Assembly (NCBI RefSeq): GCF_947499265.1
Contig: NZ_CANMNK010000009.1
Location: 1 to 64,000 of the forward strand
Reading direction: 5' to 3'
Length of the DNA: 64,000 bases
DNA from: an uncultured Roseobacter sp.
GTDB taxonomy: Bacteria; Pseudomonadota; Alphaproteobacteria; Rhodobacterales; Rhodobacteraceae
The notes below the pieces were generated by a model. The model was not told where the DNA came from. It was given only the letters and a program-made list of their open reading frames with translations, and did not search any database. Of this stretch, positions 8,441-40,900 are shown piece after piece (position 1 is the first letter of the stretch; each line of letters begins with the position of its first letter). Position numbers and translations under genes: made by a program.

Positions 8441-9065
8441 CGGTCCTTCGAAGACCCGCTTTCACGCAAGCACCAAGCAAGTGGGCGGAAGTCAGGGCAT
8501 AATCTCGAATAGAGCCTTCGGAGCGATGAACTGTAAAATCTAGTACTTTCAGATGCCTATCGTGCCCTGGCGTGCTTTATCGTGCAATTCGGAAAGGTTA
8601 TTTGACCATCTCCGAGAGCAGAGGCTAGAGTTTCTCATCCTCTAGGGCCCGCGATAAAATCAATAACTTTGCCATTCGTCCTCTCTTCAGTATCTGTTCC
8701 GCGTAAAAAAAGTTTGTACGCCTTCACTGTAACGGATACGCCTAGGTCTTTGTTGTTGTTAATGGCCTCTCAAGCTCTGTTTCTATTCATGTCTTCGATT
8801 GCGTGCTGCACTGGGGCGATCGCATCAATGATCCCCTTTTCAACTTCCTTGAACGCCCTGCGACATCTTTCGAATGGACAATCGCATCGCCCTGTATTTT
8901 CACACGCGCTGTGGCCACCGCTCACATAATTGTACTTTCTTCCAAAGCCTCCGAAGCTAGATTGCATCGCATGGACGCAATGTTAAACCGAGCCCGGCAG
9001 GCAAGCGCTTTCCGTCCTTTCCGGAAAGCTTGAATGGGATCAGCAGATGTACAGGTCAGGGTGAA
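8441..9065. other. Intergenic region beside the integrase remnant
   Basis: About 620 bp of lower GC. Two opposed short ORFs (8669-8929 plus; 8770-8967 minus) overlap each other, and neither shows a recognisable domain or a good ribosome site. It is probably decayed island DNA plus the promoter of the hydrolase at 9066. Confidence 0.4.
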
Positions 9066-22636: not shown

Positions 22637-23257
22637 TCAGGCCGCTTTTTTCTGCCGACGCCGGGCAATCATCCCCAGCCCGCCCAGACCCAGCGCCAAA
22701 AGCGGCAACGTGGCGGGCACAGGCACGGCGACCGGCGTGAAGGTATAGGTCAAATAGGCCGCTTCCCAGGACCCATTGTCGGTGCTGCCGTAAAACCCGA
22801 TCAATTCAGGGGACCATTCCAGATAAAGCATCTCGCCCTTCATCGTTGACCCGTAGAAATCAAAGACTTCATCATAGGGCAGCGAGATGTCGACATCTTC
22901 GGGTGTTGCCTGAGCGCTTTCGTTGTTGTTGCAGGAAAAATTGCCCAGATAGCAGTTGGTCGCGATGCCACGGTTCTCTGACCCGCCGCCGTTTTCGATT
23001 GTGGCGGTGAAGCTGAAAACCTTGCCGATATCGTCATATCCAAAAGGACCGGGCGTGCGGAAAATGTCGTTCAGACCCCACACATCAGAGGATGATTCCA
23101 GAGAGTCATATTCTGTTCTGCCGGAGTCCGTATCGACGATCAGGCCGATCCATTCGATCTTTTCCAATCGCACGTTTTTTTCAAAGGAATGGACGGTGCC
23201 CGCCGTGGCTGAAACACCAAGCGACAGAAAAAACAGGGAACTCAGAAACCGGAACAT
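22637..23257 (-). CDS. VPLPA-CTERM sorting-domain exported protein
   Basis: 206 residues. An N-terminal signal peptide (FLSSLFFLSLGVSATAG) leads a roughly 150-residue strand-rich region. At the C-terminus there is VPVPATLPLLALGLGG followed by a short spacer and RRRQKK. This proline motif, hydrophobic span and basic tail is the VPLPA-CTERM signal, recognised and cleaved by an exosortase. The mature protein is probably displayed or released with extracellular polysaccharide. No exosortase gene is in the window. Confidence 0.85.
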   Translation of the reverse strand: MFRFLSSLFFLSLGVSATAGTVHSFEKNVRLEKIEWIGLIVDTDSGRTEYDSLESSSDVWGLNDIFRTPGPFGYDDIGKVFSFTATIENGGGSENRGIATNCYLGNFSCNNNESAQATPEDVDISLPYDEVFDFYGSTMKGEMLYLEWSPELIGFYGSTDNGSWEAAYLTYTFTPVAVPVPATLPLLALGLGGLGMIARRRQKKAA

Positions 23258-23624: not shown

Positions 23625-24332
23625 CTAGGACACGAGGGCCGCGAGCTTGTACCCGACCCCATGTACCGTGCGGATCAGGTCCTCATTCTGCGTTGCGCCG
23701 CCAAGTTTCTTGCGCAGGCGCACGACATGGGCGTCGATGGCCCGGTCGGTGATCTGTACCGAGTTGCCATAGACCGTCGTCAAAATCTGCTCCCGGGTCA
23801 GAACCTCACCCTGCGCATCGGCAAGCGCGCGCAGCAGGGCAAATTCGGTGCTCGTGAGCCGCAGTTCGCTGTCATTGTGAATGTTGCGCACGACCGAGCG
23901 GATCAGATCGATTTCCAGTGCGTCAAAACGCAGCGCCTTGGCGGAAGTTTCAGGGCGCGACCCGCCACCTGCGTAGCGCCGCATCACCGAGCGCATGCGC
24001 GCCAGCAATTCCCGTGGCTCATAGGGTTTGGTGACGTAGTCATCCGCGCCCAGTTCCAGCCCGACAATCCGGTCATAGACCTCATCCCGCGCGGTCAGCA
24101 TGATCAGCGGCGTTTCCATCTCGCTGCGGATGCGCTTGGCCACCTCAAAACCGTCTTCATCCGGCAGGATAAGATCGAGGATGATCAGATCAAAACTTTC
24201 GGTTTCCAGAATTTTGAAGAGCTCAGCCGCGGTGGCCGCGGTCGCAGATTGATACCCGTGACGTGCAAAGAACCGTTCCAGAAAGGAGGTCACCTGCTGG
24301 TCGTCATCAACCACCAGAATTTTCTGTTCCAT
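23625..24332 (-). CDS. OmpR-family response regulator
   Basis: 235 residues from MEQKILVVDDDQQ. The receiver domain (1-118) has the acidic pair DDD, phospho-acceptor Asp in LIILDLILPDEDG (near residue 54), Thr in MLTARDE and Lys in DDYVTKPYEP. The C-terminal winged helix (about 140-235) shows LTSTEFALLRALAD and DRAIDAHVVRLRKKL followed by VHGVGYKL. It is divergent from the hybrid kinase gene, 76 bp apart, and the pair immediately precedes the iodate-reductase-like cluster, making it the leading candidate regulator (inference). The start was placed at 24332; six extra codons upstream (24350) look less likely. Confidence 0.88.
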   Translation of the reverse strand: MEQKILVVDDDQQVTSFLERFFARHGYQSATAATAAELFKILETESFDLIILDLILPDEDGFEVAKRIRSEMETPLIMLTARDEVYDRIVGLELGADDYVTKPYEPRELLARMRSVMRRYAGGGSRPETSAKALRFDALEIDLIRSVVRNIHNDSELRLTSTEFALLRALADAQGEVLTREQILTTVYGNSVQITDRAIDAHVVRLRKKLGGATQNEDLIRTVHGVGYKLAALVS

Positions 24333-24408
24333 ATCCCTACACTCCCACACCCGCAGCTTTAGCGTATTTTAACTTGTGGCGGGCCGCAACTCGCGACAGG
24401 CTGCGGCC

Positions 24409-26610
24409 ATGACAGAGTCCAGAGCCCATGTCTCGATGCACCGCCCCCTGCGCGCAGCCCTGTCAGCTTTGGCATTGGTTCTGGTCACCGTCATTCTGGG
24501 CGGTGTTCTGGGCGCGCTGACGCAGGCGCAATTCAAGGAAGTCCGGCAAAGTTGGCTCGACTATTCAACCGGAACGGAACGCAAAGGCATCCTGATCAGC
24601 GAAGTGCGCGCCTTACTGGGCTATGGCGGCCTGATCCACAATTACAAGAACTTCGTGCTGCGCCAGGAGGATCGCTACCTGGGCGAGACACAGCGGCAAC
24701 TTGTGGAATTCGATGAAGTCCTGTCCCGGTTCCGGGCGCTTGACCTCTCGGGGGACGAAGAGGCCGCGCTCAGCGCGATCGAGCGGACGATTGCGGAATA
24801 CAACGCCAATCTGCCGCTCGCGATCCGCGCTGCGGACGAGGGCTGGTCTGCAGAGCGTACGGACGCACAGGTGCGCGTCGATGACAGCCAGGCGATTGCA
24901 GGGCTGGCACAATTGGAGCGCATCTGGTCGGAGCTGCAGGCGTCGAGCACGCGGCGCTTGCTGGCGGCCGTGGGGCAGGGGCAGCAGCTGATCTGGATCG
25001 GGTTTCTATCGATCGCGGCACTGGTGATGGCGGCTCTGGTCGTGGGGTGGTTGTTGGTCCTGCTCTTTCGCGATCTGCGCCATGCGGTGGCGGATCTGGC
25101 GAATGAATTGTCGGAACGCAAAAGGCTGGAGGCCTCCGAGGGGCGGCTGGCCACCGCTGTTGAGCAGAGCCCGGCGACGATCATAATCACGGACACAAAT
25201 GCGCAGATCCAATATGTGAACGCCAAATTCACACAGCTGACCGGCTGGACGCTGGATGATGTCCGGGGGCAGACGCCCGCGTTCCTGCAATCCGGCGACA
25301 CCGAAGACAGCGTCTACCGCGACATCCGCGCCGGGCTCTCAAATGGCGAAGCCTGGCACGGTATCTTTCGCAACCGCAAGAAGGATGGATCAAGCTATTG
25401 GGCGGAAACGACCATCCTGCCCTTGCTGTCGCCCGAAGGCAGCATCCAGAACTTCATCGGTATCAGCGAGGACATCACCGAAAAACGGCAGGCCCGCGAT
25501 CAGGTCGTGCGCGCGCAAAAACTCGAAGCCGTGGGGCAATTGGCGGGCGGCGTGGCGCATGATTTCAACAACATCCTGACGACAATTGTGGGCTCCGCGC
25601 ATCTGGCATCGCTGGATGCTTCCGAAGGCAGTGATCTTGCCGGAGAGATTGCCCAGATCAACATCGCGGCGCGGCGCGCGCAAAGTCTGGTGAACGAACT
25701 GCTGACCTTTGCGCGGCGTGAGCCCGGAGACATGCGCGCGGTGGATCTTGGGCAGATCATCGAGGAGGTGACCGGGCTGCTCAAGGCCTCGACGCCGCCG
25801 ATGATCACCATCCGTTTCGACCCCGAGGGCGCACACCATTTCGTGCGCGGGGATCCGACGCACCTGCACCAGATCGTCATGAACCTTTGTCGCAACGCCG
25901 CTGAGGCGCTCGAGGGATCACAGGGAACCATCGACCTGAAGCTCTCCGCTGTTGCGCCGCCCGCCAACGCCGCCCCCCGTGCCGAGGGCTGGGTGAGTCT
26001 GACGGTGAGAGATGACGGGCCGGGCATGTCCGCCGAAACCCAGCGGCATCTCTTTGAGCCGTTTTTCACCACCAAGCCACTGGGCAAAAGCTCCGGTCTG
26101 GGGCTGTCCGTGGTCTACGGGCTGGTCAATGAGATGGGGGGCGAGATTTCCTTTGTCAGCGATCTTGGCGCCGGCAGCACCTTCACCATCATTCTGCCCG
26201 GGGCGGAAGCTGCAGAAGAAACTCTGGCGTCGAAGGATGATGCCATCCCGCGCGGCACCGAACGCATTCTGCTGGTGGACGACGAGGCCGAGGTTCTGGG
26301 CACCTTCCGGCGCCTGCTGACGCGGCTGGGGTATCGGGTTGAAGCCTTCAATTCACCCATGACCGCGCTGGAACGCTTCAAGGCGGACCCGGCCCGATTT
26401 GACATCCTGATTTCGGACATGGTGATGCCGGACATGAGCGGCGAAGATCTGGTGCGCGCCGTGCGGGATCTGCGCGACGACATCCCGGTCATCTATTGCT
26501 CTGCCTATAAACCGCGCCGTGTGACCGTGCCGGGCCCTGCACCAATCCTCATCGACAAACCCGTGCAGCCCGCAAAACTGGCGCGGGAAATTCGCACACT
26601 TCTGGACTAA
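24409..26610 (+). CDS. Hybrid sensor histidine kinase with PAS and receiver domains
   Basis: 733 residues from ATG at 24409. The first membrane span is about residues 16-37, followed by a helical periplasmic sensor of about 155 residues (to 193), then a second span at 195-220. Next come a PAS domain (about 245-365, TDTNAQIQYVNAKFTQLTGW), a dimerisation helix with phospho-acceptor His near residue 384 (GGVAHDFNNILT), and an ATPase domain with N-box HQIVMNLCRNAAEAL, DDGPGM and GLGLSVVYGLV. A C-terminal receiver has its Asp near residue 670 (DILISDMVMPD). No HPt domain is seen, so the C-terminal receiver may be autoregulatory. The paired regulator is encoded divergently. Confidence 0.9.
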   Translation: MTESRAHVSMHRPLRAALSALALVLVTVILGGVLGALTQAQFKEVRQSWLDYSTGTERKGILISEVRALLGYGGLIHNYKNFVLRQEDRYLGETQRQLVEFDEVLSRFRALDLSGDEEAALSAIERTIAEYNANLPLAIRAADEGWSAERTDAQVRVDDSQAIAGLAQLERIWSELQASSTRRLLAAVGQGQQLIWIGFLSIAALVMAALVVGWLLVLLFRDLRHAVADLANELSERKRLEASEGRLATAVEQSPATIIITDTNAQIQYVNAKFTQLTGWTLDDVRGQTPAFLQSGDTEDSVYRDIRAGLSNGEAWHGIFRNRKKDGSSYWAETTILPLLSPEGSIQNFIGISEDITEKRQARDQVVRAQKLEAVGQLAGGVAHDFNNILTTIVGSAHLASLDASEGSDLAGEIAQINIAARRAQSLVNELLTFARREPGDMRAVDLGQIIEEVTGLLKASTPPMITIRFDPEGAHHFVRGDPTHLHQIVMNLCRNAAEALEGSQGTIDLKLSAVAPPANAAPRAEGWVSLTVRDDGPGMSAETQRHLFEPFFTTKPLGKSSGLGLSVVYGLVNEMGGEISFVSDLGAGSTFTIILPGAEAAEETLASKDDAIPRGTERILLVDDEAEVLGTFRRLLTRLGYRVEAFNSPMTALERFKADPARFDILISDMVMPDMSGEDLVRAVRDLRDDIPVIYCSAYKPRRVTVPGPAPILIDKPVQPAKLAREIRTLLD

Positions 26611-26933
26611 TCTGTCGCATTTGAAGGACCTCGTGCGGGCCCGTTTCATATCGCAACATTTCGTCGCAATTAGTTACAAATCGCAACTCCGCGCGCAACA
26701 TATCCCGCGAGAATAGGCGTTAACCTTAGGTCAAACGGAACGGTTGGGACCCACCTCGCCAGTGCGCCCCAACCGCCTCATGTCGCATAAAAACCAAAGG
26801 GACAGGACTTAAAAAGTCTCATCTGAAGGTGTTTTCCAAAGCGGTGTCTCGCGGCACCGCACCCGTCGCGGCTGCGCATTTCGCAGCTGAATTACAGCTA
26901 GGCCATTCATCGCCCAGCAAGAAGGAGAGCTCG
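26611..26933 (+). promoter_or_regulatory. Upstream region of the iodate-reductase-like cluster with TCGCAA repeats
   Basis: About 320 bp without a gene. TCGCAA occurs at 26651, 26664 and 26681, and GCGCAA at 26693, within 50 bp. A related CCGCAAC lies between the regulator and kinase starts (24384). Tandem direct repeats of this sort are what OmpR-type regulators bind, but the spacing here (13, 17 and 12 bases) is irregular. The ribosome site of the next gene is GAAGGAGAG at about 26920. Confidence 0.4.
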
Positions 26934-28010
26934 ATGAAACGGACACTGCAAGCGGTTTGCGTGCTGGTTCTGGGGGCGAGTGCTAGTGCCGCACAAGACG
27001 TCACACCTGACCCTGCCATAGAAGTAGACGCCGCCCGCGCCGAACTGGGAAAGCGCATGTTCTACGACACGCGGCTCTCGGGCGATACCTCGCTGTCCTG
27101 TGCCAGCTGTCACCAGCCCGACAAGGCCTTTACCGACGGCGAGGCGCTGAGCCAGGCCTATACGGGTGCCGGACATTTCCGAAACGCGCCGACACTGGCG
27201 AATGTCGGGTTCCGCGACGCCTGGATGCACGATGGCCGTCTGGGCACTAACCTCAATGATGTCGCGCGGGAAATGATCACCGAAACCTATCTGATGAACA
27301 TGGACATGCGCATCATGCAGGAGCGCATGAAGCAGGATCCGGTGTACCGCGAGATGTTCGCCGCCGCCGGCATGTCGGAACCGTCGAATGGGGGCGCGCG
27401 CAATGCGCTGATGGATTTCATGAAGACGATCCAGTCGCGCAATGCGCCTTTCGACACCGGCGAGATGTCGGCGGCGGCGATGCGCGGGCAGGGCATCTTT
27501 GAGGGCAAGGGGGGCTGCGCCGCCTGCCATTCCGGCGCGCGCTTCACCGATGACAAACCCCATAACACCGGCGTGCCGACCAACCCCGACATCTGGGCCG
27601 ATCCGCTGCGGCACTCGGCCTTTGTCACCTACGCCAAATTCATGGGTGTCGAAAACTATATGAACCTGCGCGAGGATCTGGGCGCCTATATCCGCACCCA
27701 CCGTGAAGAAACCAAACGCACGTTCCTCACACCCTCGCTGCGGGAGCTGACCTATACCGCGCCCTACATGCATAACGGCACCTTTGCGACGCTGGCGGAT
27801 GTGGTCGATTTCTATGATGCCGGCGGCGGCAACGACACGGGAAAGGACGCGCGCTTGCAGCCGCTTGGACTGGTGCCCAGTGAAAAGGCCGACCTGATCG
27901 CCTTCCTCGAAAGCCTCTCCGGCGACAGCTTCGACACCGATGCCTACGTCTGGCGTGAAGATGATTACGATTACGAACTGATCGAAAACTGGCGCGAGCA
28001 GCCAAACTGA
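26934..28010 (+). CDS. Diheme cytochrome c peroxidase, IdrP-like
   Basis: 358 residues from ATG at 26934 with GAAGGAGAG upstream; an earlier in-frame start at 26829 lies in the leader region. A signal peptide (TLQAVCVLVLGASASAAQ) sends it to the periplasm. Two heme c sites are visible: CASCH at about 56-60 and CAACH at about 195-199. The length and the C-terminal LTYTAPYMHNGTFATLADVV fit bacterial cytochrome c peroxidase/MauG. It is the first gene of a four-gene run ending in the molybdoenzyme. In described iodate-reductase clusters two such peroxidases (IdrP1, IdrP2) are thought to remove hydrogen peroxide released during iodate reduction. Which of the two this one matches is not clear. Confidence 0.85.
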   Translation: MKRTLQAVCVLVLGASASAAQDVTPDPAIEVDAARAELGKRMFYDTRLSGDTSLSCASCHQPDKAFTDGEALSQAYTGAGHFRNAPTLANVGFRDAWMHDGRLGTNLNDVAREMITETYLMNMDMRIMQERMKQDPVYREMFAAAGMSEPSNGGARNALMDFMKTIQSRNAPFDTGEMSAAAMRGQGIFEGKGGCAACHSGARFTDDKPHNTGVPTNPDIWADPLRHSAFVTYAKFMGVENYMNLREDLGAYIRTHREETKRTFLTPSLRELTYTAPYMHNGTFATLADVVDFYDAGGGNDTGKDARLQPLGLVPSEKADLIAFLESLSGDSFDTDAYVWREDDYDYELIENWREQPN

Positions 28011-28021
28011 TAGAGGGCATC

Positions 28022-29149
28022 ATGACACATAAAACCCGGATCGCCGCCTTCCTCATGGTCACCTGCCTGGCGGGGGTGGGCATGGCGGATGGGCACAGAC
28101 CGTCAGAGCTGGCAGCGCTGGATCCACCGGCGGCCCCCGCTGATAACCCGCAGACACCGGAGAAGATCGCCCTGGGCGAGTTGCTGTTCTTTGACCCGAT
28201 CCTGTCGGGCAACGGCGAGATGTCCTGCGCCTCCTGTCACCGGCCCGAAGCGGGCTGGGCGGTGCAGGACAAGATCAGCTTTGGCTATCCCGGCACCACC
28301 CACTGGCGCAACAGCCAGACCGTGGTGAATTCGGCCTACTACAAGAAGCTCTTCTGGGCCGGGGCGAGCGGTAGCCTTGAGCATCAGGCGCGCTCGGCCG
28401 CCCGCGGCGGCGTGGCTGGCAATGGTGAAGACGACATGATGGAGGCGCGGCTGGCCTTTGTGCCGGAATACCGCGAGGCCTTCCGCGAGGTGTTTGGCGA
28501 TGACTGGCCGCTGGTGCGCCATGCCTATATGGCGCTGGCCTCATACCAACGCACCTTGGTCCAAACCGACACCCCCTTCGACACGTATATGCGCGGCGAT
28601 GATGCCGCACTGAGCGAGGCGCAGAAACGCGGGCTGGATCTCTTCACCGGTAAAGCCAATTGCGCGGCCTGCCACAATGGCGCGCTGCTGTCGAACGAGG
28701 CCTATTACAACATCGGCGTGCCACCCTACGACGGCTGGGAAGAGGATGAGTTGGCGCAGATCACCTTCCGGTTCGAACTCTACGCCAAAGGCTCCACAGA
28801 AGAGATGTACCGCAAGACCAAGGATGATCCGGGCCTCTATTTCCGCACCAAGCAGAAGGCCGACAAGGGCAAGTTCCGCGTGCCCAGCCTGCGCTACACC
28901 AAATACACCTATCCCTACATGCACAACGGCATGCTGGAGACGCTGCGCGACGTGGTGGTCTTTTACAACGCGGGCGGCGGCGAGAATGAATTTGCCGCCA
29001 ACAAGTCCGAACTGATCCAGCCTCTGGGACTGGAGGAGGCGGAAATCGACGATCTGGTGGCCTTTCTCGAAAGCCTGAGTGGGCCGGAAATTCTGGTCGA
29101 CGATCCGGACCTGCCCGAAATGCAACCCCTGCCAGCGACACAGAATTGA
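28022..29149 (+). CDS. Second diheme cytochrome c peroxidase, IdrP-like
   Basis: 375 residues, 11 bp after the first peroxidase. A signal peptide (AAFLMVTCLAGVGMADG) is followed by two heme c motifs: CASCH at about 69-73 and CAACH at about 214-218. The distal segment KYTYPYMHNGMLETLRDVVVFYNAGGG parallels the first protein but the overall sequence is clearly different, so this is an old paralogue pair rather than a recent duplication. Presence of two non-identical diheme peroxidases beside an arsenite-oxidase-like molybdoenzyme is diagnostic of idr-type clusters. Confidence 0.85.
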   Translation: MTHKTRIAAFLMVTCLAGVGMADGHRPSELAALDPPAAPADNPQTPEKIALGELLFFDPILSGNGEMSCASCHRPEAGWAVQDKISFGYPGTTHWRNSQTVVNSAYYKKLFWAGASGSLEHQARSAARGGVAGNGEDDMMEARLAFVPEYREAFREVFGDDWPLVRHAYMALASYQRTLVQTDTPFDTYMRGDDAALSEAQKRGLDLFTGKANCAACHNGALLSNEAYYNIGVPPYDGWEEDELAQITFRFELYAKGSTEEMYRKTKDDPGLYFRTKQKADKGKFRVPSLRYTKYTYPYMHNGMLETLRDVVVFYNAGGGENEFAANKSELIQPLGLEEAEIDDLVAFLESLSGPEILVDDPDLPEMQPLPATQN

Positions 29150-29162
29150 TGAGGAAGCAAGC

Positions 29163-29750
29163 ATGACACAGGTCGATCCTAAGATCCGCGCGGCGATCAA
29201 CGGCGAGAACGGCGAGGCCGCCAGGGCCGGCACCCGCAACTGCCTGATGAACCGGCGCGAATTCCTGCTCACCAGCGGCATTGCCACCAGCGTGGTGATG
29301 GTGGGCGTGCCGGGCATGCCGCAGGCGCAGACACCCGCTGTGGTCTCCACCTATCCGCGCAAGCTGATCGCCAAGCTCAGCGCGCTGACCGTCGATGAAC
29401 CGTTTGATTTCGAATACCCCGACGAGGGCGAATATGCGGAATCCATTCTGGTTAAACTGGGTCGGGCAGCAGGGGGCGGGCTTGGCCCGGACAAGGATGT
29501 GGTGGCATTCAACTACACCTGCACCCATCAGGGCGGCCCGCTGCAAGGCACCTATCAGGCCGCGGACAAGGCGCTGGGACCATGCCCGCTGCACCTGACC
29601 ACCTTCGATCTGACACGGCACGGGATTTTCATCGCCGGGCAGGCCTATCAGTCGCTGCCGCAGGTGCTCTTGGAACTGGATGGCGACGATATTTACGCCG
29701 TCGGCATGTTTGGCCTGATCTACGGCCGTTTTGACAATCTGCAAGGCTGA
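29163..29750 (+). CDS. idrB: Rieske iron-sulfur subunit, IdrB-like
   Basis: 195 residues from ATG at 29163 (GAGGAAG leader). A Tat signal is present at about 30-55: NRREFLLTSGIATSVVMVG. The Rieske [2Fe-2S] ligands appear as CTHQGG and CPLH. This is the small-subunit fold of arsenite oxidase (AioB) and iodate reductase (IdrB). The protein carries the only Tat signal of the pair, so it probably exports the cofactor-loaded catalytic subunit with it and passes electrons to it in the periplasm. Assignment as IdrB rather than AioB rests on the adjacent peroxidases. Confidence 0.75.
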   Translation: MTQVDPKIRAAINGENGEAARAGTRNCLMNRREFLLTSGIATSVVMVGVPGMPQAQTPAVVSTYPRKLIAKLSALTVDEPFDFEYPDEGEYAESILVKLGRAAGGGLGPDKDVVAFNYTCTHQGGPLQGTYQAADKALGPCPLHLTTFDLTRHGIFIAGQAYQSLPQVLLELDGDDIYAVGMFGLIYGRFDNLQG

Positions 29751-29761
29751 GGAGCGCACCC

Positions 29762-32437
29762 ATGTCCACGCCATATTATGTCCCGGAAACCGCCGTGCCG
29801 CTGCCGCCGCCAGACGCCGACGTCATTTCAACCGCCTGCGACTATTGCGTTGTCGCCTGTGGCTACAAGGTTTACCGCTGGCCGGTTGCGGGCGGCAAGG
29901 TCGGTGGCCCGAAAGCCGAAGACAACGCCTTTAACGAAGATTTCCCCGTTGCCCCTCTTGGGGCCTGGGTGGCTCCGAACCAACACAATATCGTGCTGCA
30001 CAACGGTGCGCCGCACCATGTGGTCATCATCCCGGACAAGGACGCCGAATTCGTCAATTATTCCGGCAATTCGTCAATCCGGGGCGGGGCGCTGGCGCAA
30101 AAGGTCTATAACCCGCAAACCCCCACGCGCGACCGTCTGAAATCCCCGATGGTGCGGATGTTCGGCGTGCTGATGCCCGTTACCTGGGACTTCGCGCTGG
30201 AGATCGCGGCAGAGGTCGGCAATCACGTGCTCGAAAAACACGGCACCAACGCCTACGGAGTAAAAACCTTCTCCTATGGCTATATGGAGAATACCTATGC
30301 GATCACCAAATATGCGCTGCGCCATGTGCGCACGGCGAATTTCACCTTTCACGACACGCCCTCGGATGTAACCTCCACGCCCGGTTTCCGGGATGCGGGT
30401 TTTGACAATTTCGGGCCCAGCTACGACGACTGGGCTGAGGCCGACACGCTGTTGATGTGCGGCACAGACCCCTACGAATCCAAGACCATCCTCTTCACCG
30501 ATTACATCATGCCTGCGATCCAAGGCGGTCAGAAGGCGATCTTTTTGCTGCCGCGCCGCACCTCCGGCACTGCCTTCGCGGAAAAGAACGGTGGCATGGT
30601 GATCGATATTCAGCCCGGCACCGACCTGCCGGTGGTGCTGGCCATCGCGCGGGTGATTGTCGAGAACGGCTGGGAGGACAGTGAATGGATCCAGAACTGG
30701 GTCAACAACAAGTGGGAAAGCTCTTCCGGCTTCGGGCAGGGCACGCGCAACACGCCCTGGCAGTGGCGCACCACCTGGGGCAAATTCCAGACGGCCGGTT
30801 TTGAGGATTGGAAGGAATGGCTGCTGGCCCAGGATTATTCCGAGCCGGAAAAGGCCGCGGAGATCGCCCAGATCGACGTGCAGAAAATCTACACCGCTGC
30901 CGAATGGATGGCCAAACCGAAAGAGGACGGCACCCGCCCCAAGACCTCCGTGATGATCGAGAAGGGGTTTTACTGGTCCAACAACACCGGCAATACGCAG
31001 GCGATCTCTGCCTTGGGCATCATCACCGGCTGTGGCGGGCGCCCCGGTCAGGTCATCGGGCGCGCCGGGGGCCACCAGCGCGGTGGTCTGCGCGGCGGCG
31101 GCTATCCGCGGAACAAGTCTCCCGAAAAACTCCCCGGTCGCAGGCGGCGCGCCATGGACACCGACCGCTATCTGATGAGCGGTCACACGCGGCTGGCCCA
31201 TGTCATCGGCACCACCTGGGTGCAGGCGATGTGCGGCACGCAGTCGCTGCAGGCCAAGTTTGACGAGCTGACCACGCGAAACCCGCATCAGGTCCAGAGC
31301 TTTGAGAAACAGGACATCATCGACACGCTGAAACGGAGGGCGGATTCAGGCGGTATGGTGGTTTGGAACCAGGACATCTACATGGTCGATCCCATCGGCA
31401 CGCGCTATGCCGACATCGTTTTCCCGGCCAGCGGGTGGGGTGAGGATACCTTTACCCGCGCCAATGGCGAGCGGCGTATCCGGCTTTATCCGAAGTTCTA
31501 CGACGCCCCCGGTGAGGCAAAACCGGATTGGTGGATCATCGCGCAGCTGGCCAGGAAGATGGGCTTTGAGGGGTTCGACTGGAAGGACTCCAACGAGGTG
31601 CTGGAAGAGGGCGCGCGCCATTCGCGCGGTTCGCGTAAGGATTTCTTCATGGTCAAGGTCAAGGCCGATCAGGAAGGCAAGACGCTGCACCAGAAGCTGG
31701 GGGAGTTTGGCACCAATGGCATCCAGGGCCCGGTTCTGATGGACAAGGATGGAACCTTGGTGGAGACCAAGCGGCTGCATGATGTGAACCGGGTACTCCC
31801 CGAGGAGGGACCGATTGGCGCCAATGTGTTCAACAAGAAGCTGACACATTTCAACAGCCAGACCGGCAAATGCAACATCCAGAAAGCACCCTGGGATCTT
31901 TTCTCCAGCTACTGGGAATGGCTCAAACCGCGTGAAGGTGAGATCTGGATCACCTCGGGGCGCATCAACGAGCGGTGGCAATCGGGCTATGACGACCGGC
32001 GCAGGCCGTATATCGTGCAGCGCTGGCCGGAGAACTGGATCGAAATTCACCCGACAGTGGCGGAAGCCAGCGGGATCGAGAATGGCGACTACGTGCAGGT
32101 CTATTCGGACCGGATTCCGGTGCAGACGGATACGATCATCGGGGTCGAAGGCTCTGATTTCGATTTCGCCGAGTTACTCAAGAACGGGCATATCGAGCTG
32201 ACCAAAGCGTCAATCACAGCCGTCGCCATTGTGACGCCGGCGGTGAAGGAAAACCTCGGCTACATGGATTTCCTGCACACCAGCCAGCCTGCAAATGCCC
32301 TCTCGGGTCGCGTCGTCGACTGGATCAGCGGCAACTACAACTACAAGATGGGTGTCGGCAAGGTGCGCAAAATGGGCGAAAGCCCCTATAAATCGCAGTT
32401 CCGGTCGATGTCCTTTGCCCGCCGCGATATCGCGTGA
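29762..32437 (+). CDS. idrA: Molybdopterin oxidoreductase, putative iodate reductase catalytic subunit
   Basis: 891 residues, a DMSO-reductase-superfamily enzyme of the arsenite-oxidase branch. Cys26, Cys29, Cys33 and Ser104 form the pattern C-x2-C-x3-C-x70-S, the same spacing as the [3Fe-4S] site of AioA. The pterin-binding regions include GVLMPVTWDFALEIAAE and VVWNQDIYMVDPIGTRYADIVFPAS. Aligning with AioA residues recalled as arsenite ligands (H195, E203, R419, H423), this protein has His197, Ser205, Arg434 and His438: the Glu is Ser. With two diheme peroxidases and a Rieske subunit alongside, iodate reductase (IdrA) is more likely than arsenite oxidase. No signal peptide; export would be with IdrB. 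Confidence 0.75.
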   Translation: MSTPYYVPETAVPLPPPDADVISTACDYCVVACGYKVYRWPVAGGKVGGPKAEDNAFNEDFPVAPLGAWVAPNQHNIVLHNGAPHHVVIIPDKDAEFVNYSGNSSIRGGALAQKVYNPQTPTRDRLKSPMVRMFGVLMPVTWDFALEIAAEVGNHVLEKHGTNAYGVKTFSYGYMENTYAITKYALRHVRTANFTFHDTPSDVTSTPGFRDAGFDNFGPSYDDWAEADTLLMCGTDPYESKTILFTDYIMPAIQGGQKAIFLLPRRTSGTAFAEKNGGMVIDIQPGTDLPVVLAIARVIVENGWEDSEWIQNWVNNKWESSSGFGQGTRNTPWQWRTTWGKFQTAGFEDWKEWLLAQDYSEPEKAAEIAQIDVQKIYTAAEWMAKPKEDGTRPKTSVMIEKGFYWSNNTGNTQAISALGIITGCGGRPGQVIGRAGGHQRGGLRGGGYPRNKSPEKLPGRRRRAMDTDRYLMSGHTRLAHVIGTTWVQAMCGTQSLQAKFDELTTRNPHQVQSFEKQDIIDTLKRRADSGGMVVWNQDIYMVDPIGTRYADIVFPASGWGEDTFTRANGERRIRLYPKFYDAPGEAKPDWWIIAQLARKMGFEGFDWKDSNEVLEEGARHSRGSRKDFFMVKVKADQEGKTLHQKLGEFGTNGIQGPVLMDKDGTLVETKRLHDVNRVLPEEGPIGANVFNKKLTHFNSQTGKCNIQKAPWDLFSSYWEWLKPREGEIWITSGRINERWQSGYDDRRRPYIVQRWPENWIEIHPTVAEASGIENGDYVQVYSDRIPVQTDTIIGVEGSDFDFAELLKNGHIELTKASITAVAIVTPAVKENLGYMDFLHTSQPANALSGRVVDWISGNYNYKMGVGKVRKMGESPYKSQFRSMSFARRDIA

Positions 32438-32491: not shown

Positions 32492-34612
32492 ATGATGCAA
32501 TCTGATACCCTGCTCAATCCGCGCGCAAAGCTTTCCGCATTTGATGCGTTTCTGACATCGGAGAACGAAGTCCTCCGTTCGGCTGCGGTCTGTGCCTTGC
32601 CCGCCTTGATGGAGGGGAGCGCAAAGGATGTGCGCGCGGCATTGTTGATAGCACGCCTTGACCCCGATCCAGACGTGCGCAGCGACGCGATTGAGGCGCT
32701 GGTGCCTCTGGCAGAGCCCGAAGATGCGGAGGATTTGCTACATTCGCTCGCCGGTGATCCGGTGCGCGAGGTCAAACTGGCTGCCATTCGGACGCTGGCG
32801 CGATTGCAGTCGACGGAGGCTGTCCCCCTGTTGCAGGCGCTGGTGATATCGCGGTCCGAGGATCAGGTGACCTGGGAAGACGCCGGCAGCGATTGGGAAG
32901 ACTGGCTGGATGTTCAAATGGCTGCCATCCGAGCGCTGAGTGACATGCAGGCCGAAGAGGCCATCGACGATCTGATCGTGGCGCTGATGGATGCGTTCGG
33001 GCAATCCGTTGACGTACCCGTCTACCACGCCCTGGCGCAAATGGGCGAGATTGGCGTTGCCACGCTGATCGAGGTCTTCAATCAGATGAAAGGCGTCGCG
33101 CGTCGCCGTGCCGCTGCAGCTTTAGCCAAGGCCGCGCCAGAAAGCTTCGAGATGCATCTGGAAAAGCTGTTGGCGTCAGAGGAGCCTGAATTGCGGGTGC
33201 TGGCGCTCAAGGTGCTCGCGCCCGATGATGCCCGCAGCGAAGCGCTTGCGCGCGACGACCCCGATGCCGATGTCCGCGCTGCAGCACTGCGGCATGCGGT
33301 ATCTGTTCATCCCGATCTCGCGCGCCGCGGCCTTTCCGACAGCAGCGAACGTGTTCGGGTTGCGGCCTTGAACAGCCTCGCGCCGCCGTTTGAGTCAGAT
33401 TTCCACGAAGCACTTGTCGACAACATGCTGATGTGGCTACCGCGTTGTGGGCCTGAGCTGGCGATCTGCGTGATCGAAAGACTGCAGGTGCTCGCGCCCA
33501 ACCGCGCTTTGGGTCCGCTTTTGCAGCTGATTGATGCGCGTGAAAATGACCTGGAGGTGCGCGTTGCGGCGGCAAAAGCGCTCGGAGCAACTGCATTGAA
33601 AGTGCCGGTAGCGCTGATTGCGGAACGTCTGGAAAATCCCGCGCGTCAGGTCCGCGCCACGCTCCTGACCGTATTGATGCACAAGATGGCCAGCGACGAC
33701 GACGCGGTTGATCTCGCCGCAGCCGTGATTGCGGGCGACATCCTGCTGCCCGAGCCCGACCCCGAACAAATGACGGGTGACGTTGCGGTTCCGGACGCTG
33801 GCACGCCCAAGGAAGGGGCCGGGTCCAGCCGCATCTGGATCACGCCTGAGGGTGAGATTGTCGAACGCGAGAACGCCGCCCAGCAAAGCGGGCAGAGCAC
33901 ACTGGATGCAATCCAGTTGGACGCGCATGTGACGCTCTCCGCAGCGCCCCCGATGGCCGGAGAAACGCCCGAAGAATCCGGTGCGAAACGTGCCAAACGA
34001 CGCGTTGTTGAAGGATCCGACGATCTGGCGCCGTCGCTGGCCTGCGACGCGATGCGGATATTCCGCGACTGCGTTGGGGGCAAGCTGACCGAGGCGATGA
34101 TGGCGCGGGTAGATGATCCCGATGAGACGGTGCGCCGCGCGGCCTGGGAGACGTTGGCGGGCAGGGTGGTGGCACCGGCGTTCCGCAAGACCGCCGAGGC
34201 TGGCTTTGCCGACAGCGACCCGCTGATCCGCATGGCGGCGTTTCGCATTCTGTCGCAAGATCCCGATCCTGCCGTGCTGAGCAGGGGGCTCAATGACGCA
34301 GACGCCTTGATCCGCGCCGAAGCCGTTGCGCACTTGCCTGCGAGCCAAGCGCTCGACTTCATCGGCGACACAGCAACCGCTGTGCGGCAAAAAGCGGCGC
34401 AGAAAATCCTGACCTCGGGGGAGACCACGTTTATCCAGGCAGCGATGCGCGCCGCGATCAACGCAGAGCGGTCCGACACCCTCGGGATGCTGGCGCGGCA
34501 AGCTGACGCGGCGCAGGAAACAGCCCTCGAAATCCTTGCAGACAGTGTTGACAATCCCCGCCGCGCGTTGATCATTCTACGCGGGCTTGCCCCGCGCCAC
34601 GACGCTTCATAA
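32492..34612 (+). CDS. HEAT-repeat protein downstream of the iodate-reductase-like genes
   Basis: 706 residues with no signal peptide or membrane span, built from about a dozen HEAT-like helical pairs. Examples are LDPDPDVRSDAIEALVPLA, DPVREVKLAAIRTLARL, DPDADVRAAALRHAV and DPDETVRRAAWETLAG. A low-complexity acidic linker (about 430-530) divides two repeat blocks. Such proteins scaffold protein-protein contacts. Because it follows the catalytic subunit by about 55 bp on the same strand, it may act as a maturation or Tat proof-reading chaperone for the molybdoenzyme; this is inference from position. An ATG three bases later is an equal start candidate. Confidence 0.7.
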   Translation: MMQSDTLLNPRAKLSAFDAFLTSENEVLRSAAVCALPALMEGSAKDVRAALLIARLDPDPDVRSDAIEALVPLAEPEDAEDLLHSLAGDPVREVKLAAIRTLARLQSTEAVPLLQALVISRSEDQVTWEDAGSDWEDWLDVQMAAIRALSDMQAEEAIDDLIVALMDAFGQSVDVPVYHALAQMGEIGVATLIEVFNQMKGVARRRAAAALAKAAPESFEMHLEKLLASEEPELRVLALKVLAPDDARSEALARDDPDADVRAAALRHAVSVHPDLARRGLSDSSERVRVAALNSLAPPFESDFHEALVDNMLMWLPRCGPELAICVIERLQVLAPNRALGPLLQLIDARENDLEVRVAAAKALGATALKVPVALIAERLENPARQVRATLLTVLMHKMASDDDAVDLAAAVIAGDILLPEPDPEQMTGDVAVPDAGTPKEGAGSSRIWITPEGEIVERENAAQQSGQSTLDAIQLDAHVTLSAAPPMAGETPEESGAKRAKRRVVEGSDDLAPSLACDAMRIFRDCVGGKLTEAMMARVDDPDETVRRAAWETLAGRVVAPAFRKTAEAGFADSDPLIRMAAFRILSQDPDPAVLSRGLNDADALIRAEAVAHLPASQALDFIGDTATAVRQKAAQKILTSGETTFIQAAMRAAINAERSDTLGMLARQADAAQETALEILADSVDNPRRALIILRGLAPRHDAS

Positions 34613-34624
34613 TTTGGTCAGACC

Positions 34625-35146
34625 ATGAGAATTGCCTATACGATTGCGCCCGGAAAAGGCGATACGGATCAGCTGCTTTATGGCTTTGCCCGCAAAGCGC
34701 TGACCCTTGGTCATCGCTTGTGCGGTGCCGTGCAGGTCAATACCGACAGCTGCGATGGCGGGCTCTGCGATATGGATGTGAAGCTCCTGCCGGAGGGACC
34801 TGTCATTCGCATTTCGCAAAGCCTGGGCCCTTCCGCGACCGGCTGCAGGCTTGATCCCGAAGCGTTGGAACAGGCCGTGGGTTTGGTCAGCACCGAAGTG
34901 GCCAAGGGGGCCGATCTGCTCATCGTCAACAAGTTCGGCAAACACGAGGCCGCTGGCCGCGGGTTTCGACCGGTGATCGCGGAAGCGCTGAGCCTTGATA
35001 TCCCGGTTCTTGTGGGCCTGAATACCTTAAACCTTGCTGCGTTCATCGCGTTTACGGGGGATTTGGCCCAAGCGCTTCCAGCAGATGAGGCGACACTGAC
35101 TGCATGGTTCGACGCGCAAATCGCGGAACGGAACGCGCCTGCTTGA
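34625..35146 (+). CDS. DUF2478 protein (molybdenum-associated)
   Basis: 173 residues starting MRIAYTIAPGKGDTDQLLYGFA. The glycine-rich start resembles a worn P-loop, and the strand ADLLIVNKFGKHEAAGRGF, about residue 100, resembles a Walker B region followed by a conserved N-K-F-G-K motif. Pfam notes DUF2478 proteins near molybdenum-transport genes. Its place behind a molybdoenzyme cluster agrees with a role in molybdenum handling or cofactor supply. Four cysteines (RLCGAV, DSCDGGLCD, TGCRL) could bind a metal. Twelve bases separate it from the HEAT gene. Confidence 0.75.
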   Translation: MRIAYTIAPGKGDTDQLLYGFARKALTLGHRLCGAVQVNTDSCDGGLCDMDVKLLPEGPVIRISQSLGPSATGCRLDPEALEQAVGLVSTEVAKGADLLIVNKFGKHEAAGRGFRPVIAEALSLDIPVLVGLNTLNLAAFIAFTGDLAQALPADEATLTAWFDAQIAERNAPA

Positions 35147-36425: not shown

Positions 36426-36522
36426 AAACCGGACGGGGTGTTCCGGTGTCGGGAAAGCCCTGATCCCATCAGGCCCATCTCGTCATCTGACCCACGTCCC
36501 ATGACATATGGGACAAAACACT

Positions 36523-36921
36523 ATGACGACAGACGCAACAGCCTTGACCGGCCCTGCCACAGAATTGCTGATCTGTGTCAAATGCAGGCGCGGTCAGGAG
36601 ATCCCGGAGGACGAACGCCGTCCGGGACAGCGCCTTTATGACACTTTGGCGCAAAACGGGATGCCGCCTGGCATTCGCCTGAAACCCGTGGAATGCCTGC
36701 AGAACTGTGACCATGGCTGCACGATTGCGCTGCGCGGCGGCGACAGGTGGACGTATATTTACGGAAACATCGATGAAGTGTCGCATCCGGACGTCCTGAT
36801 CGATGGGGCGGCCCGCTATAACGCCACGCAGGATGGCCTGATCCCGTGGCGCGAGCGCCCCGACCATTTTAAACGCAACTGTATCGCGCGCATCCCGCCG
36901 CTGGAGAACGACCATGACTGA
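36523..36921 (+). CDS. DUF1636 metal-binding protein
   Basis: 132 residues from ATG at 36523 (GGGAC upstream); an ATG 15 bases earlier has no ribosome site. DUF1636 proteins carry two pairs of cysteines: here CVKCRRG at about residue 18 and CLQNCDHGC near residue 60, a ferredoxin-like or metal-binding arrangement. They are often the first gene under a B12 riboswitch and are thought to aid cobalt handling or CobN chemistry. Its end overlaps the start of cobW by eight bases. Confidence 0.8.
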   Translation: MTTDATALTGPATELLICVKCRRGQEIPEDERRPGQRLYDTLAQNGMPPGIRLKPVECLQNCDHGCTIALRGGDRWTYIYGNIDEVSHPDVLIDGAARYNATQDGLIPWRERPDHFKRNCIARIPPLENDHD

Positions 36922-37972
36922 TCTTGCAAAACTTCCCGTGACCGTGATCACCGGCTTTCTGGGCTCGGGCAAAACCACCCTGATCCGCGAACTGATGCAG
37001 AACCCCGGCGGCAAGCGGCTGGCCGTGGTGGTGAATGAGTTTGGCGATGTGGGGGTCGACGGCGACATCCTGAAATCCTGCGCGATCCCCGATTGCCCGG
37101 CGGAGAATATCATGGAACTGGCCAACGGCTGCATCTGCTGCACCGTGGCCGATGATTTCATCCCGACCATCGAGGCGCTGATGGCGCTGGAGCCGCGTCC
37201 CGATCACATCCTCATTGAGACCTCCGGGCTGGCGCTGCCGAAACCCTTGCTCAAGGCCTTCGACTGGCCCGACATCCGCTCGAAAATCACGGTAGACGGT
37301 GTGATCGCGCTGGCAGATGCCGAAGCCGTGGCGGCGGGGCGCTTTGCGCCCAATGTGGCGGCGGTGGATGCGCAACGCGCAGCGGATGAGAGCATTGATC
37401 ACGAAACGCCCCTGTCCGAGGTCTTCGAGGATCAGATTTCCTGCGCCGATATCATCCTGTTGACCAAGCCCGATCTGGCCGGACCGGAAGGGGTTGCGAA
37501 GGCAAAAGAAATCATCGCCGCCGAAGCGCCGCGCCCCTTGCCGGTGGTCGAGGTTGCCGAAGGGATCGTGGACCCGCGCATCATTCTCGGCCTCGAAGCG
37601 GCGGCGGAGGATGACATGGACGCGCGTCCCAGCCACCACGACGGCCCGCATGATCACGACCACGAGGATTTTGAAAGCATCGTGGTAGATATCCCCGAGC
37701 AAACCGACCCGGCGGATCTGGTGCGCGCGGTGGAGGTGCTGGCCAATGAGCACAACATCCTGCGCGTGAAAGGCTATGCCGCTGTGGCAGGCAAACCCAT
37801 GCGCTTGCTGGTGCAGGCGGTGGGTGCCCGCGTCCGGCATCAGTATGACCGTGCGTGGCAGCCGGATGAGGCGCGGCAGGGGCGTCTGGTGGTGATTGCC
37901 GAGCATGACGATATCAGAGTGGCAACCATTCAGTCCGTGCTGGGCGCCCGCGCCGTCGAGGCCGCAGAGTAA
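36914..37972 (+). CDS. cobW: CobW GTPase, cobalt chaperone
   Basis: 352 residues. Walker A GFLGSGKTTL at residues 14-23, the CxCC metal motif in NGCICCTV, and ETSGLALP (Walker B/switch) are visible. A His-rich loop (HHDGPHDHDHED, around residue 240) adds metal-binding capacity. CobW-family GTPases load cobalt for cobalamin synthesis; it is encoded just before the CobN chelatase subunit and overlaps DUF1636. The C-terminal CobW_C domain is complete. Confidence 0.92.
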   Translation: MTDLAKLPVTVITGFLGSGKTTLIRELMQNPGGKRLAVVVNEFGDVGVDGDILKSCAIPDCPAENIMELANGCICCTVADDFIPTIEALMALEPRPDHILIETSGLALPKPLLKAFDWPDIRSKITVDGVIALADAEAVAAGRFAPNVAAVDAQRAADESIDHETPLSEVFEDQISCADIILLTKPDLAGPEGVAKAKEIIAAEAPRPLPVVEVAEGIVDPRIILGLEAAAEDDMDARPSHHDGPHDHDHEDFESIVVDIPEQTDPADLVRAVEVLANEHNILRVKGYAAVAGKPMRLLVQAVGARVRHQYDRAWQPDEARQGRLVVIAEHDDIRVATIQSVLGARAVEAAE

Positions 37973-37978
37973 CCCCCC

Positions 37979-40900
37979 ATGCACGTCGTTTTCCGCGAAA
38001 GCCATGGGTTGGAGGAGACCGAGACGCCAACGGATCTGGGGCAGAGCCCCGCGGATCTGGTGGTGTTGTCGTTCTCCGACAGTGACCTGGGTGCTTTCGC
38101 GGAGGCCTGGCGGCGGGGCGGCGGGCCAGAGGGCAAACTGCCCACGTTGCGGCTCGCCAATCTGGTGGCACTGAAACATCCGCTGTCGGTCGACACCTAT
38201 GTGGAGCAGACGCTGGCGGGCGCGAAGGGCATCCTGATCCGGCTGATCGGCGGCGTGCCGTACTGGTCTTACGGGCTGCAACAGGTCCGCGCAATGGCCG
38301 AGCGCAAGGGTATCGCGCTGGCGGTGCTGCCTGCGGATGGGCGCGTCGACGCAAGGCTCGATGATTTCGCCACGCTGCCGGTCTCGACCCTGCGACGGCT
38401 CAGTCACCTCTGTGACACCGGTGGCGTTGTTGCCGCGCAGGCGGCGCTGGCGCAGATGTCACTGGCGGCGGGCCTCTATGCAGGGCCGGTCGCAGGTTCC
38501 AAAACGCTGCCGTCTCTTGGCGCCTGGACGCCGGAGCATGGCGTGACCTGTCCTGTTGTGACGCAGGTCGCTGATCCGAAACCGCGCATTCTCATCAGCT
38601 TCTACCGCTCTTACCTCGTTTCTGCCGATCTGGCGCCGATCCATGCGCTTTTTGCGGCTTTCCGCGCCCGGGGCTATGACGTCATTGGCCTCTTTGTGCC
38701 CTCGCTGAAAGCGCCGCAAGCCTCCGGGTGGCTGCGCCGTCAGGTGGCGCACATGAAACCGGCGGCCATCGTCAACGCCACGGCCTTCAGCGGCAAGGGT
38801 GACGATGGCGCATCCCCGTTGGATGTGGGCGATGTACCGGTATTTCAAGTGGCGCTGGCCACCTCGACTCGCGCAGCCTGGGTGGAAGCAGAGCGGGGGT
38901 TGTCACCTGCGGATCTGGCCATGCATGTGGTGCTGCCCGAGGTGGACGGTCGGATCATGGGCGGTGTCGCCTCCTTCAAGGAACCGGGCGTGCGCGACCC
39001 TGATCTTGAGTATTCCCGCTTTGCCCATGCGCCGGAGCCCGACCGGATCGAGGCGATTGCCGATCGCGTGCACGGCTGGCTGACACTGGCAGCGACACCT
39101 GCAGCCGAACGCCGGGTGGCGCTGGTGCTCTCCACCTATCCCGGCAAAGACTGGAACATGGGCCATGCGGTGGGGCTGGATGCGCCCGCCTCGGCGCAGA
39201 CCATCCTGCAAGACCTCGCACAGGCTGGTTATGACGCGCAGGCGGCGGCTGCAGAGATCACGGGTGAGCTCGTGGCCCGCCACGAAACATGGCCTGTGGC
39301 GGATTACATGGCAGCTCTGAGCCAAGTCCCTGATGCGCTGAAAACCGATCTTTTCAACGCCTGGGGCGCGCCAGAAAACGATCCGGATGTCGAGGATGGT
39401 GCGTTCCGCTTTGCCGTGACCCATCACGGCAAGGTGTTCGTGGCGCTGCAGCCCGAACGCGGCACGCCGGATCAGCGCGACGATGACTACCACGATCTGT
39501 CGCGGGTGCCCCGGCATGCCTATGTGGCGTTTTATCTCTGGCTGCAGGCGCGCGCCGACGCCTTGGTGCACATCGGAGCACATGGGACGTTGGAATGGCT
39601 GCCCGGCAAATCGGTTGCACTTTCAGCCACCTGCTGGCCCGAGGCGCTCACCGGGGCGCTGCCGGTCATCTATCCTTTCATCGTCAATGACCCGGGCGAG
39701 GCGGCGCAGGCGAAACGGCGGATCGGCGCGATCACCCTCGGTCATGTCCCGCCACCGCTGCGCGAGAGCGGCACGCCCGAGGGCCTGGTGCGGTTGGAGA
39801 GCCTGCTGGACGAGTTCTCCAACGCCGATGGGTTGGACCCGCGCCGCCGCGACCGGTTGCAGGATGACATCCGCGCCGAGGCGCAGGCGCTGGGTGTCGA
39901 GGACGATCTGGGTCTGGATCGCGCCGGGTGCAGCGCCGAAGCGATCACGCGCATCGACAGGTTTGTCTGCGACATCAAGGAAAGCCAGTTTGGCGACGGT
40001 TTGCACATCTGGGGTAGGGCACCGCGTGCCGACACAGCTTTCGATGTCGAACCCTCGATCCAAGCCGAGCAACACGCGCTGCTGGATGCCCTGGACGGGC
40101 GACGCATTGCGGCGGGGCCCTCGGGGTCGCCCTATCGCGGTCGCACGGATGTCCTGCCCACGGGCCGCAACCTCTTTACCACCGATCCCCGCGCCGTGCC
40201 GACCCGTGCCGCCTATGCGCAGGGCGTGAAGCTGGCCGATGAGCTGGTGCGCCGCCATCTGCAGGATGCGGGGGACTGGCCGCGCGGTCTGATCGTCGAT
40301 CTTTGGGGGTCGGCAACCATGCGCACGGCGGGCGAGGATTTCGCCATGGCGCTGCATCTGCTGGGCACAAGGCCCGTCTGGGACGCCGGATCAGAGCGCG
40401 TGTCCGGCATCGAGGTGCTGCCCATCACCGAATTGGACCGGCCCCGGATCGATGTCACCCTGCGGGTCTCAGGCCTCTTCCGCGATGTCTTCCCCACGCT
40501 TTCGGCGCTCTTTGCCCAGGCCGTGCGCGCCCTGGCTGCGCGGGACGAGGCCGCCGATTGGAACCCCTATGTTGGGAGGGGCGATCTGGCGCGCGTCTAT
40601 GGCCCGGCACCCGGCAGTTTTGGCGTCGGCATGACCGACGCCGCGCAGACCCATACCGAAGCGGGCCGCCGGGCCGCGGGCGAGGCGTGGTTGAAGGCCA
40701 GCGCCTGGGCACTGGACGGCGAAACGGCGAAACGGCAGGATCACGGCATCCGCACCCGGGTCGCGCAGGCGGATACATTTGTGCACGCACAGGACCTGCC
40801 GGAGACGGACCTGTTGCTGGCCGCCGATTACGCGGCGCATGAGGCCGGATTTGCCGCGGCACAGGCCATCACTGGCGGGCAGGCGGCGCTCTATCATCTG

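Follow-up and report, generated by a model that had tools for sequence, protein, structure and literature searches.

We analysed a 64,000-nucleotide stretch of DNA from an uncultured Roseobacter sp. (contig NZ_CANMNK010000009.1, positions 1 to 64,000; hereafter the window), which carries a putative iodate reductase (idr) gene run followed by a gene for a HEAT-repeat protein. As the original prediction described, the run comprises four uninterrupted open reading frames (ORFs) on the plus strand, separated by 11, 13 and 11 bp. The first two genes, named here idrP2 (26,934–28,010) and idrP1 (28,022–29,149) after the published order idrP2, P1, B, A, encode two different diheme cytochrome c peroxidase (CCP)/MauG-family proteins of 358 and 375 amino acids (aa), in line with the earlier description. 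Each contains two CxxCH motifs (at residues 56 and 195, and 69 and 214, respectively) and matches PF03150 (127.7 and 149.3 bits); judged by eye, the former has a Sec-like signal and the latter a Sec signal. Relatives of the idrP1 protein in the PDB are cytochrome c551 peroxidases, the di-heme enzyme 6e1c and MauG, and the MauG and MbnH equivalog models of NCBIfam match the peroxidases with scores below cut-off.

The third gene, idrB (29,163–29,750), encodes a 195-aa Rieske [2Fe-2S] subunit with a TIGR02694 match of 120.5 bits (cut-off 95.65), an exact CXHX18CX2H motif and PDB matches to AioB. Its NRREFL motif, together with inspection by eye, suggests a twin-arginine translocation (Tat)-like signal, as had been claimed; the Rieske analyses took the frame from 29,157, two codons 5' of the ATG at 29,163. 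The fourth gene, idrA (29,762–32,437), encodes the 891-aa catalytic molybdopterin subunit, which had been described as an arsenite-oxidase-like molybdoenzyme and indeed matches TIGR02693 at 415.4 bits (cut-off 359.05). It has no signal peptide by eye and is the only TIGR02693-type large subunit above cut-off in the whole genome. The features expected of an Idr cluster, namely two diheme peroxidases with Sec signals (by eye) beside idrBA in the order P, P, B, A, were all present.

The run probably continues past position 32,437. The next gene on the same strand (32,492–34,612), 54 bp after idrA, encodes a 706-aa protein whose only Pfam matches are HEAT_2 (85 bits) and HEAT, and which we propose as a candidate assembly partner of IdrAB; a DUF2478 gene follows 12 bp further on.

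The four-gene cluster has the usual Idr order

The order P-P-B-A had been regarded as different from that of known clusters because the label idrABP1P2 was taken as a gene order. We compared related loci from one genome scan, using the best 80 of 481 confirmed loci (75–96% identity); the locus counts given here represent close relatives. In the loci with enough flank, tblastn placed the Rieske gene upstream of idrA in 77/77, the second peroxidase gene in 72/72 and the first in 70/70, so that all 70 testable loci share the order of the window. The same order is found on the plasmids of Azonexus hydrophilus and Vibrio THAF190c. In the parts of the literature covered, PMC10989891 reports the order idrP2,P1,B,A in Ca. 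Methylomirabilis iodofontis, shared with Pseudomonas sp. SCT and with Denitromonas IR-12, and terms it characteristic, and PMC8801600 states that the two peroxidases always lie upstream of idrAB. Gene order as a novelty is ruled out by these loci and reports. Records of 78 of the 80 loci bear alphaproteobacterial names; the exceptions are L083 (Proteobacteria only) and L134 (Anaerolineae), the latter probably mis-binned, its IdrA being almost identical to that of an alphaproteobacterial metagenome-assembled genome (MAG). The four-gene cluster itself is a known Idr type; what merits reporting is the HEAT gene conserved beside it.

The window enzyme groups with IdrA and apart from AioA

The cluster might alternatively be a relative of arsenite oxidase (Aio) that oxidises arsenite. 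Arsenite-oxidase subunit models are its best curated family matches, above cut-off, and the window IdrA is 26–31% identical to annotated or likely AioA among the plasmid records listed. The family models, the [3Fe-4S] and Rieske motifs and the B-before-A order are common to AioBA and the window cluster. We built a phylogeny with IdrA- and AioA-type proteins and applied to it the refutation test of the original prediction, a position of the protein inside the AioA clade. In this 94-protein tree, 65 IdrA and 27 AioA rows formed separate groups with supports of 98 and 100 in the Shimodaira–Hasegawa-like approximate likelihood ratio test (SH-aLRT), and the 891-aa protein fell inside the IdrA group, outside the AioA clade. 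The tree was a quick maximum-likelihood tree with SH-aLRT support only and two outgroup rows on very long branches, two of the initial 96 rows having been dropped (L003, an outgroup fragment, and L028, a frame with a stop). It did not include the IdrA of Pseudomonas sp. SCT and Denitromonas IR-12, for which the Azonexus plasmid (L041) served as the nearest named betaproteobacterial stand-in.

The active site divides the two groups in the same way. The arsenite-site residues of A. faecalis AioA are H195, E203, R419 and H423. The glutamate that contacts arsenite is present in 27/27 AioA rows and replaced by S, D or A in 65/65 IdrA rows; the window IdrA has S205 there and keeps the other three positions as H197, R434 and H438. 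Above-cut-off TIGR02693 scores in the family also separate IdrA-type (399–433 bits) from AioA-type proteins (485–1244 bits, fragments included), and the Aio locus of pSinA carries aioXSR with no peroxidase annotated. The [3Fe-4S] residues C26, C29, C33 and S105 are conserved in the window IdrA, with 71 residues before the serine instead of the 70 in the Idr motif CX2CX3CX70S given in the published text covered.

Arsenite oxidase identity was rejected on the tree separation and the lost glutamate, the window enzyme holding an incomplete version of the four-residue AioAB site, and arsenite oxidation is hardly tenable as its activity. Judged from its sequence, the cluster almost certainly belongs to the Idr family, and iodate is very probably the main substrate of the enzyme. 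The tree, the active-site pattern, the Rieske motif with its Tat-like signal and the two peroxidases, along with the iodate reduction demonstrated for idr-bearing marine aerobic Alphaproteobacteria (PMC11445184), uphold the iodate-reductase reading as to family membership; its claim of a different gene order falls away.

A HEAT-repeat gene accompanies idrA in this lineage

Searches with tblastn revealed a relative of the HEAT gene after idrA, on the same strand, in all 77 loci with at least 600 bp of downstream sequence; the remaining three of the 80 have at most 345 bp. An unbiased grouping of ORFs over the 80 loci recovered the peroxidases in 75 (as one group), IdrA in 71, the HEAT protein in 70 and the Rieske subunit in 60, with the regulator (33), kinase (30), MoeA (24) and a CRP-type regulator (20) less widespread. 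These groups were made from the longest non-overlapping ORFs, sometimes in the wrong frame, and their counts are lower bounds; the tblastn counts are independent of the grouping.

We further searched whole genomes. Full-length HEAT matches (471–758 bits) occurred in 13 of 295 genomes of the family, all 13 idrA-bearing: 12 had already been counted with idrA, and in the thirteenth (G019) a cut idrA lies at the contig edge directly before the HEAT gene. Three of the 16 recognised idrA-bearing family genomes are without a HEAT gene, namely G156 and G173, considered below, and G095, in which only 100 bp of sequence follow idrA. The 295 genomes also gave eight weak matches (42–52 bits), which lie in short frames of 321–346 aa and resemble HEAT proteins of a generic kind. 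The class-level sample of 385 genomes contained 12 with an IdrA-type protein at 56% identity or more; 10 of these have a HEAT match at E ≤ 1e-15 (weak in G488, 141 bits), and no match at this threshold was found outside the idrA-bearing genomes. For the other two, the HEAT gene of G418 was found by reading its locus (L204), and G352 is cut by a contig end. Fisher tests of the co-occurrence of HEAT gene and idrA gave p ~4e-20 and ~2e-20, values that ignore relatedness, and the two samples overlap in some genomes, including the window's own. The genome searches scored the best two or three candidates per genome and missed one true copy, that of G418; all candidates were scored in the window's own genome, G685 and G156. 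One row of the HEAT alignment (A2), L138, was in the wrong frame (true frame 584 bits); it stayed in the genome searches, the structure prediction and the motif count and was left out of the HEAT distance tests and of a later local model.

Across 44 loci and the window, distances between HEAT proteins correlated with those of IdrA (r 0.88), IdrB (0.85), the first peroxidase (0.92) and the second peroxidase (0.91), which fits a jointly inherited unit. The HEAT gene might accordingly be co-inherited cargo of an idr island with no functional link, given that neighbouring genes travel together and the distances of all five genes correlate. Against this, the gene is retained over many alphaproteobacterial families while other neighbours vary, it has stayed on the idrA contig in G578 despite a separation of ~13.5 kb, and no full-length HEAT match without idrA was found in either sample (295 and 385 genomes). 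We consider mere cargo very unlikely, and the pattern of occurrence makes it highly likely that the HEAT protein is a dedicated functional partner of idr.

The association extends over the alphaproteobacterial Idr lineage and a deeper branch (G418 and G488), not over all Idr. On the Vibrio plasmid (L040), a weak HEAT-like gene lies elsewhere in the locus, divergent to the first peroxidase gene; it has an STLAAL motif, but with 14.7–14.9 bits and an hhalign probability of 10% its relationship to the window HEAT gene is only suggestive. A plasmid search with the HEAT protein gave no match at E 1e-5. The genes around idrABP1P2 are described as poorly conserved in the parts of Reyes-Umana 2021 covered, and nothing relevant tying a HEAT-repeat gene to iodate or to molybdoenzymes was found among the open papers searched. 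The constant presence of the HEAT gene with this idr type appears to be new and unreported.

Structure and proposed role of the HEAT protein

The predicted structure of the HEAT protein (mean predicted local distance difference test score (pLDDT) 85.3) consists of two lobes, each a HEAT alpha-solenoid, joined by a linker at residues ~420–504 that is modelled as mostly disordered. The linker holds an STLxAI-like motif near residues 469–474 (S in 28, T in 25, L in 26 and I in 23 of 28 rows, which include one wrong-frame row), and a W-rich stretch at residues 128–142 is also conserved. Inspection by eye showed neither a signal peptide nor a membrane segment, so that the protein is probably cytoplasmic.

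Tat-exported molybdoenzymes take up their cofactor in the cytoplasm. Because IdrA would be loaded with cofactor there and, in the published model, leaves on the Tat signal of IdrB, our leading reading is that the HEAT protein is an assembly or proofreading partner. That it acts on IdrAB in this way, in cytoplasmic assembly or Tat proofreading, has a little under an even chance of being correct. The likeness to chaperones of the TorD/DmsD/NarJ type lies in the proposed role only, that of a partner specific to one Tat-exported molybdoenzyme and serving its assembly in the cytoplasm: those proteins belong to PF02613, whereas the window protein consists of 706 aa of HEAT repeats, and Pfam gave no PF02613 match in it. 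The genome has two TorD/NarJ-type (PF02613) genes, neither of them near the idr run; each lies no more than 2 kb from matches to other molybdoenzymes, of which one is weak (24 bits). We tentatively suggest, as a somewhat bolder idea, that the HEAT protein founds a new class of enzyme-specific molybdoenzyme assembly or Tat-proofreading proteins unrelated to TorD/NarJ. This class would have originated together with the marine Idr lineage or been taken up by it, and active IdrAB would depend on it there but not in the more distant idr lineages without the gene.

Several observations weigh against assembly of IdrAB as the role. The top 50 Foldseek matches listed for the HEAT model are generic solenoids, HEAT scaffolds bind many things, and the distance correlations do not single out IdrAB as the partner. 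Three idrA-bearing genomes are without a HEAT gene: G156 (~50% IdrA identity, 27/27 candidates scored), G173 (~50%) and G685 (65%), where neither the surroundings of idr (L212) nor the rest of the genome, with 9/9 candidates scored, yielded the gene. A six-frame check of the available stretches of L041, L042, L044, L049, L212, L213 and L214 likewise found none. An IdrA search of 339 genomes of the phylum yielded four, the window's among them; the other three are G685 and the two closer to Azonexus, G691 and G879, which have no HEAT gene in the available stretch (L213, with 4.3 kb after idrA and almost nothing before it, and L214). Some IdrA-bearing genomes being without the gene, the HEAT protein is not needed by every IdrAB.

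The HEAT protein might instead shield the cell from hypoiodous acid and iodinated products, or repair the damage they do. HEAT distances track the peroxidases as closely as they track IdrA, and the published mechanism predicts reactive iodine. However, no catalytic domain scored above cut-off in Pfam or NCBIfam, and the protein is cytoplasmic by eye while iodate chemistry is periplasmic; we regard protection or repair as quite unlikely. A part in phage defence was also considered and dropped, there being no PADLOC match. A view of AioF as an arsenite-oxidase chaperone was not borne out, AioF being described as a regulator in the literature covered.

Candidate upstream regulators

Upstream of the run lie a hybrid histidine kinase gene (24,376–26,610, plus strand; PAS, HisKA, HATPase and receiver domains by Pfam), a candidate signal sensor, and, divergent to it, an OmpR-type response regulator gene (23,625–24,350, minus strand; Pfam). 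Among the 64 loci with 6 kb of upstream sequence, 30 have a kinase relative, 20 a minus-strand regulator and 18 both; relatives also occur at L044, L049 and L214. A CRP/FNR-like regulator gene lies near idr in 20 loci (e.g., L076:4839-5621), in whose available stretches no kinase relative was found, so that two styles of idr control may exist.

These counts bear on whether the HEAT protein might serve as a scaffold in regulation or signalling, one linked to the kinase for instance. Cytoplasmic HEAT scaffolds often act in signalling, and two-component or CRP-type genes stand beside many idr loci. Yet the HEAT gene is present in 77/77 loci and the kinase upstream in only 30/64, and from the 20 CRP-type loci it follows that the HEAT gene accompanies different regulators. 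A regulatory scaffold is unlikely, and assembly or proofreading of IdrAB remains our leading reading.

A direct-repeat array (26,651–26,686, plus strand) of TCGCAA/TTACAA units with spacings of 13, 10 and 7 lies between the kinase gene and idrP2, with similar arrays in L059–L062. Arrays at shuffle p ≤ 0.02 occur in 6 of 32 regulator-bearing loci (the window included) and in 0 of 39 without the regulator; the motif was chosen after the sequences had been viewed and the shuffles were mononucleotide, which makes this analysis exploratory. The OmpR-type regulator may bind to this array. Generic scans for sigma-70 promoters and terminators gave counts no better than shuffles.

DUF2478 and other neighbouring genes

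The DUF2478 gene (34,625–35,146, plus strand; PF10649, 171.9 bits) is an optional last gene of the run and the only copy in the genome. Its predicted structure (mean pLDDT 88.0) resembles THEP1 nucleoside triphosphatases (best Foldseek match 1ye8, E 1.9e-4), but no Walker-A motif was seen by eye in the window sequence. A link specific to idr is ruled out for DUF2478, which is found in 15/80 idr loci and in 160/295 family genomes; nor did a constant molybdoenzyme partner emerge among 18 regions compared for recurring neighbours, to which L185 and L044 were added. In L185 a DUF2478 gene (8,902–9,393) lies directly after aioA, which together with the copy in the idr run hints that DUF2478 has a part to play with enzymes of this family.

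The idr run is directly followed by a cobalamin-type cluster (36,508–41,272, on to ~48,900), which contains DUF1636-like, CobW-like and CobN-like ORFs by eye and further matches to tetrapyrrole methylase and CobB/CobQ types. A small secreted protein is encoded at 22,637–23,257, with a VPxPA sorting-like tail at the C-terminus and RRR, also by eye. The sample holds just one further genome of the same genus as the window (G266); it has no idrA-type match (best E 1.6e-27), and the idr operon therefore looks accessory.

Discussion

We conclude that the window probably holds an iodate-reductase operon of a type common in marine Alphaproteobacteria, with the HEAT protein as a fifth partner. In the published model for Denitromonas, as far as covered, IdrA forms a pair with IdrB, whose Tat signal carries it out of the cytoplasm; such a signal is predicted here as well, and the same route may apply. 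In the periplasm, electrons would then pass from c-type cytochromes through the Rieske centre of IdrB to IdrA, which would reduce iodate to hypoiodous acid, the latter disproportionating to iodide and iodate, as the published model has it. According to a published hypothesis, the two diheme peroxidases remove peroxide or related oxidants. Iodate, low oxygen or both probably switch the operon on through the kinase and regulator encoded upstream, and the HEAT protein would act as the fifth functional partner, most likely in cytoplasmic IdrAB assembly or Tat proofreading.

In the published descriptions covered, the Idr systems of Pseudomonas sp. SCT and Denitromonas IR-12 have four genes in the order of the window, and that of Azoarcus DN11 shares the cofactor motifs, an IdrB with a Tat signal and two CX2CH motifs per peroxidase. 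The published flanks differ: AtoS/AtoC-type sigma-54 two-component genes are reported for DN11 and c-type cytochrome and molybdenum cofactor genes for SCT, whereas the window has an OmpR-type regulator, a hybrid kinase and the HEAT gene downstream. The nearest tested relatives are most likely Roseovarius azorensis, Notoacmeibacter marinus and Aliiroseovarius sediminilitoris, which are of the same class and habitat type and carry the four idr genes (PMC11445184). The parts of that report covered describe almost complete reduction of 2 mM iodate by these three marine Alphaproteobacteria in static culture, induction of idr expression by iodate in R. azorensis (59–102-fold static, 8–14-fold shaking) and no anaerobic growth with iodate of aerobic idr-bearing relatives; they mention no HEAT gene in the three strains. 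We predict that all three carry it, and the gene is present in an Aliiroseovarius MAG (L084). As to its purpose, the operon of the window may serve in respiration, in detoxification or as an electron sink.

Cytochrome bd-like subunits are encoded near idr in a number of loci (L204, L205, L206–L207, L051, L137, L138, L184, L045, L055, L057, L161, L162 and L173), several of which also have cytochrome c and EB_dh-domain proteins. These genes are candidates for a dedicated route from quinol to IdrAB; neither cytochrome bd-like nor EB_dh genes were seen in the examined part of the window. The Denitromonas cluster has no quinone oxidoreductase according to the part of PMC8692401 covered, and a literature search found no paper linking iodate, cytochrome bd and idr.

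If the iodate reductase of this lineage needs a fifth protein, marker-gene surveys, heterologous expression and models based on four genes miss a part. The HEAT gene also provides a sequence mark that divides the common alphaproteobacterial Idr lineage from the Azonexus/Thiothrix-like loci compared here, and it lets one ask about a link to the non-respiratory, oxygen-limited iodate reduction reported in marine aerobes.

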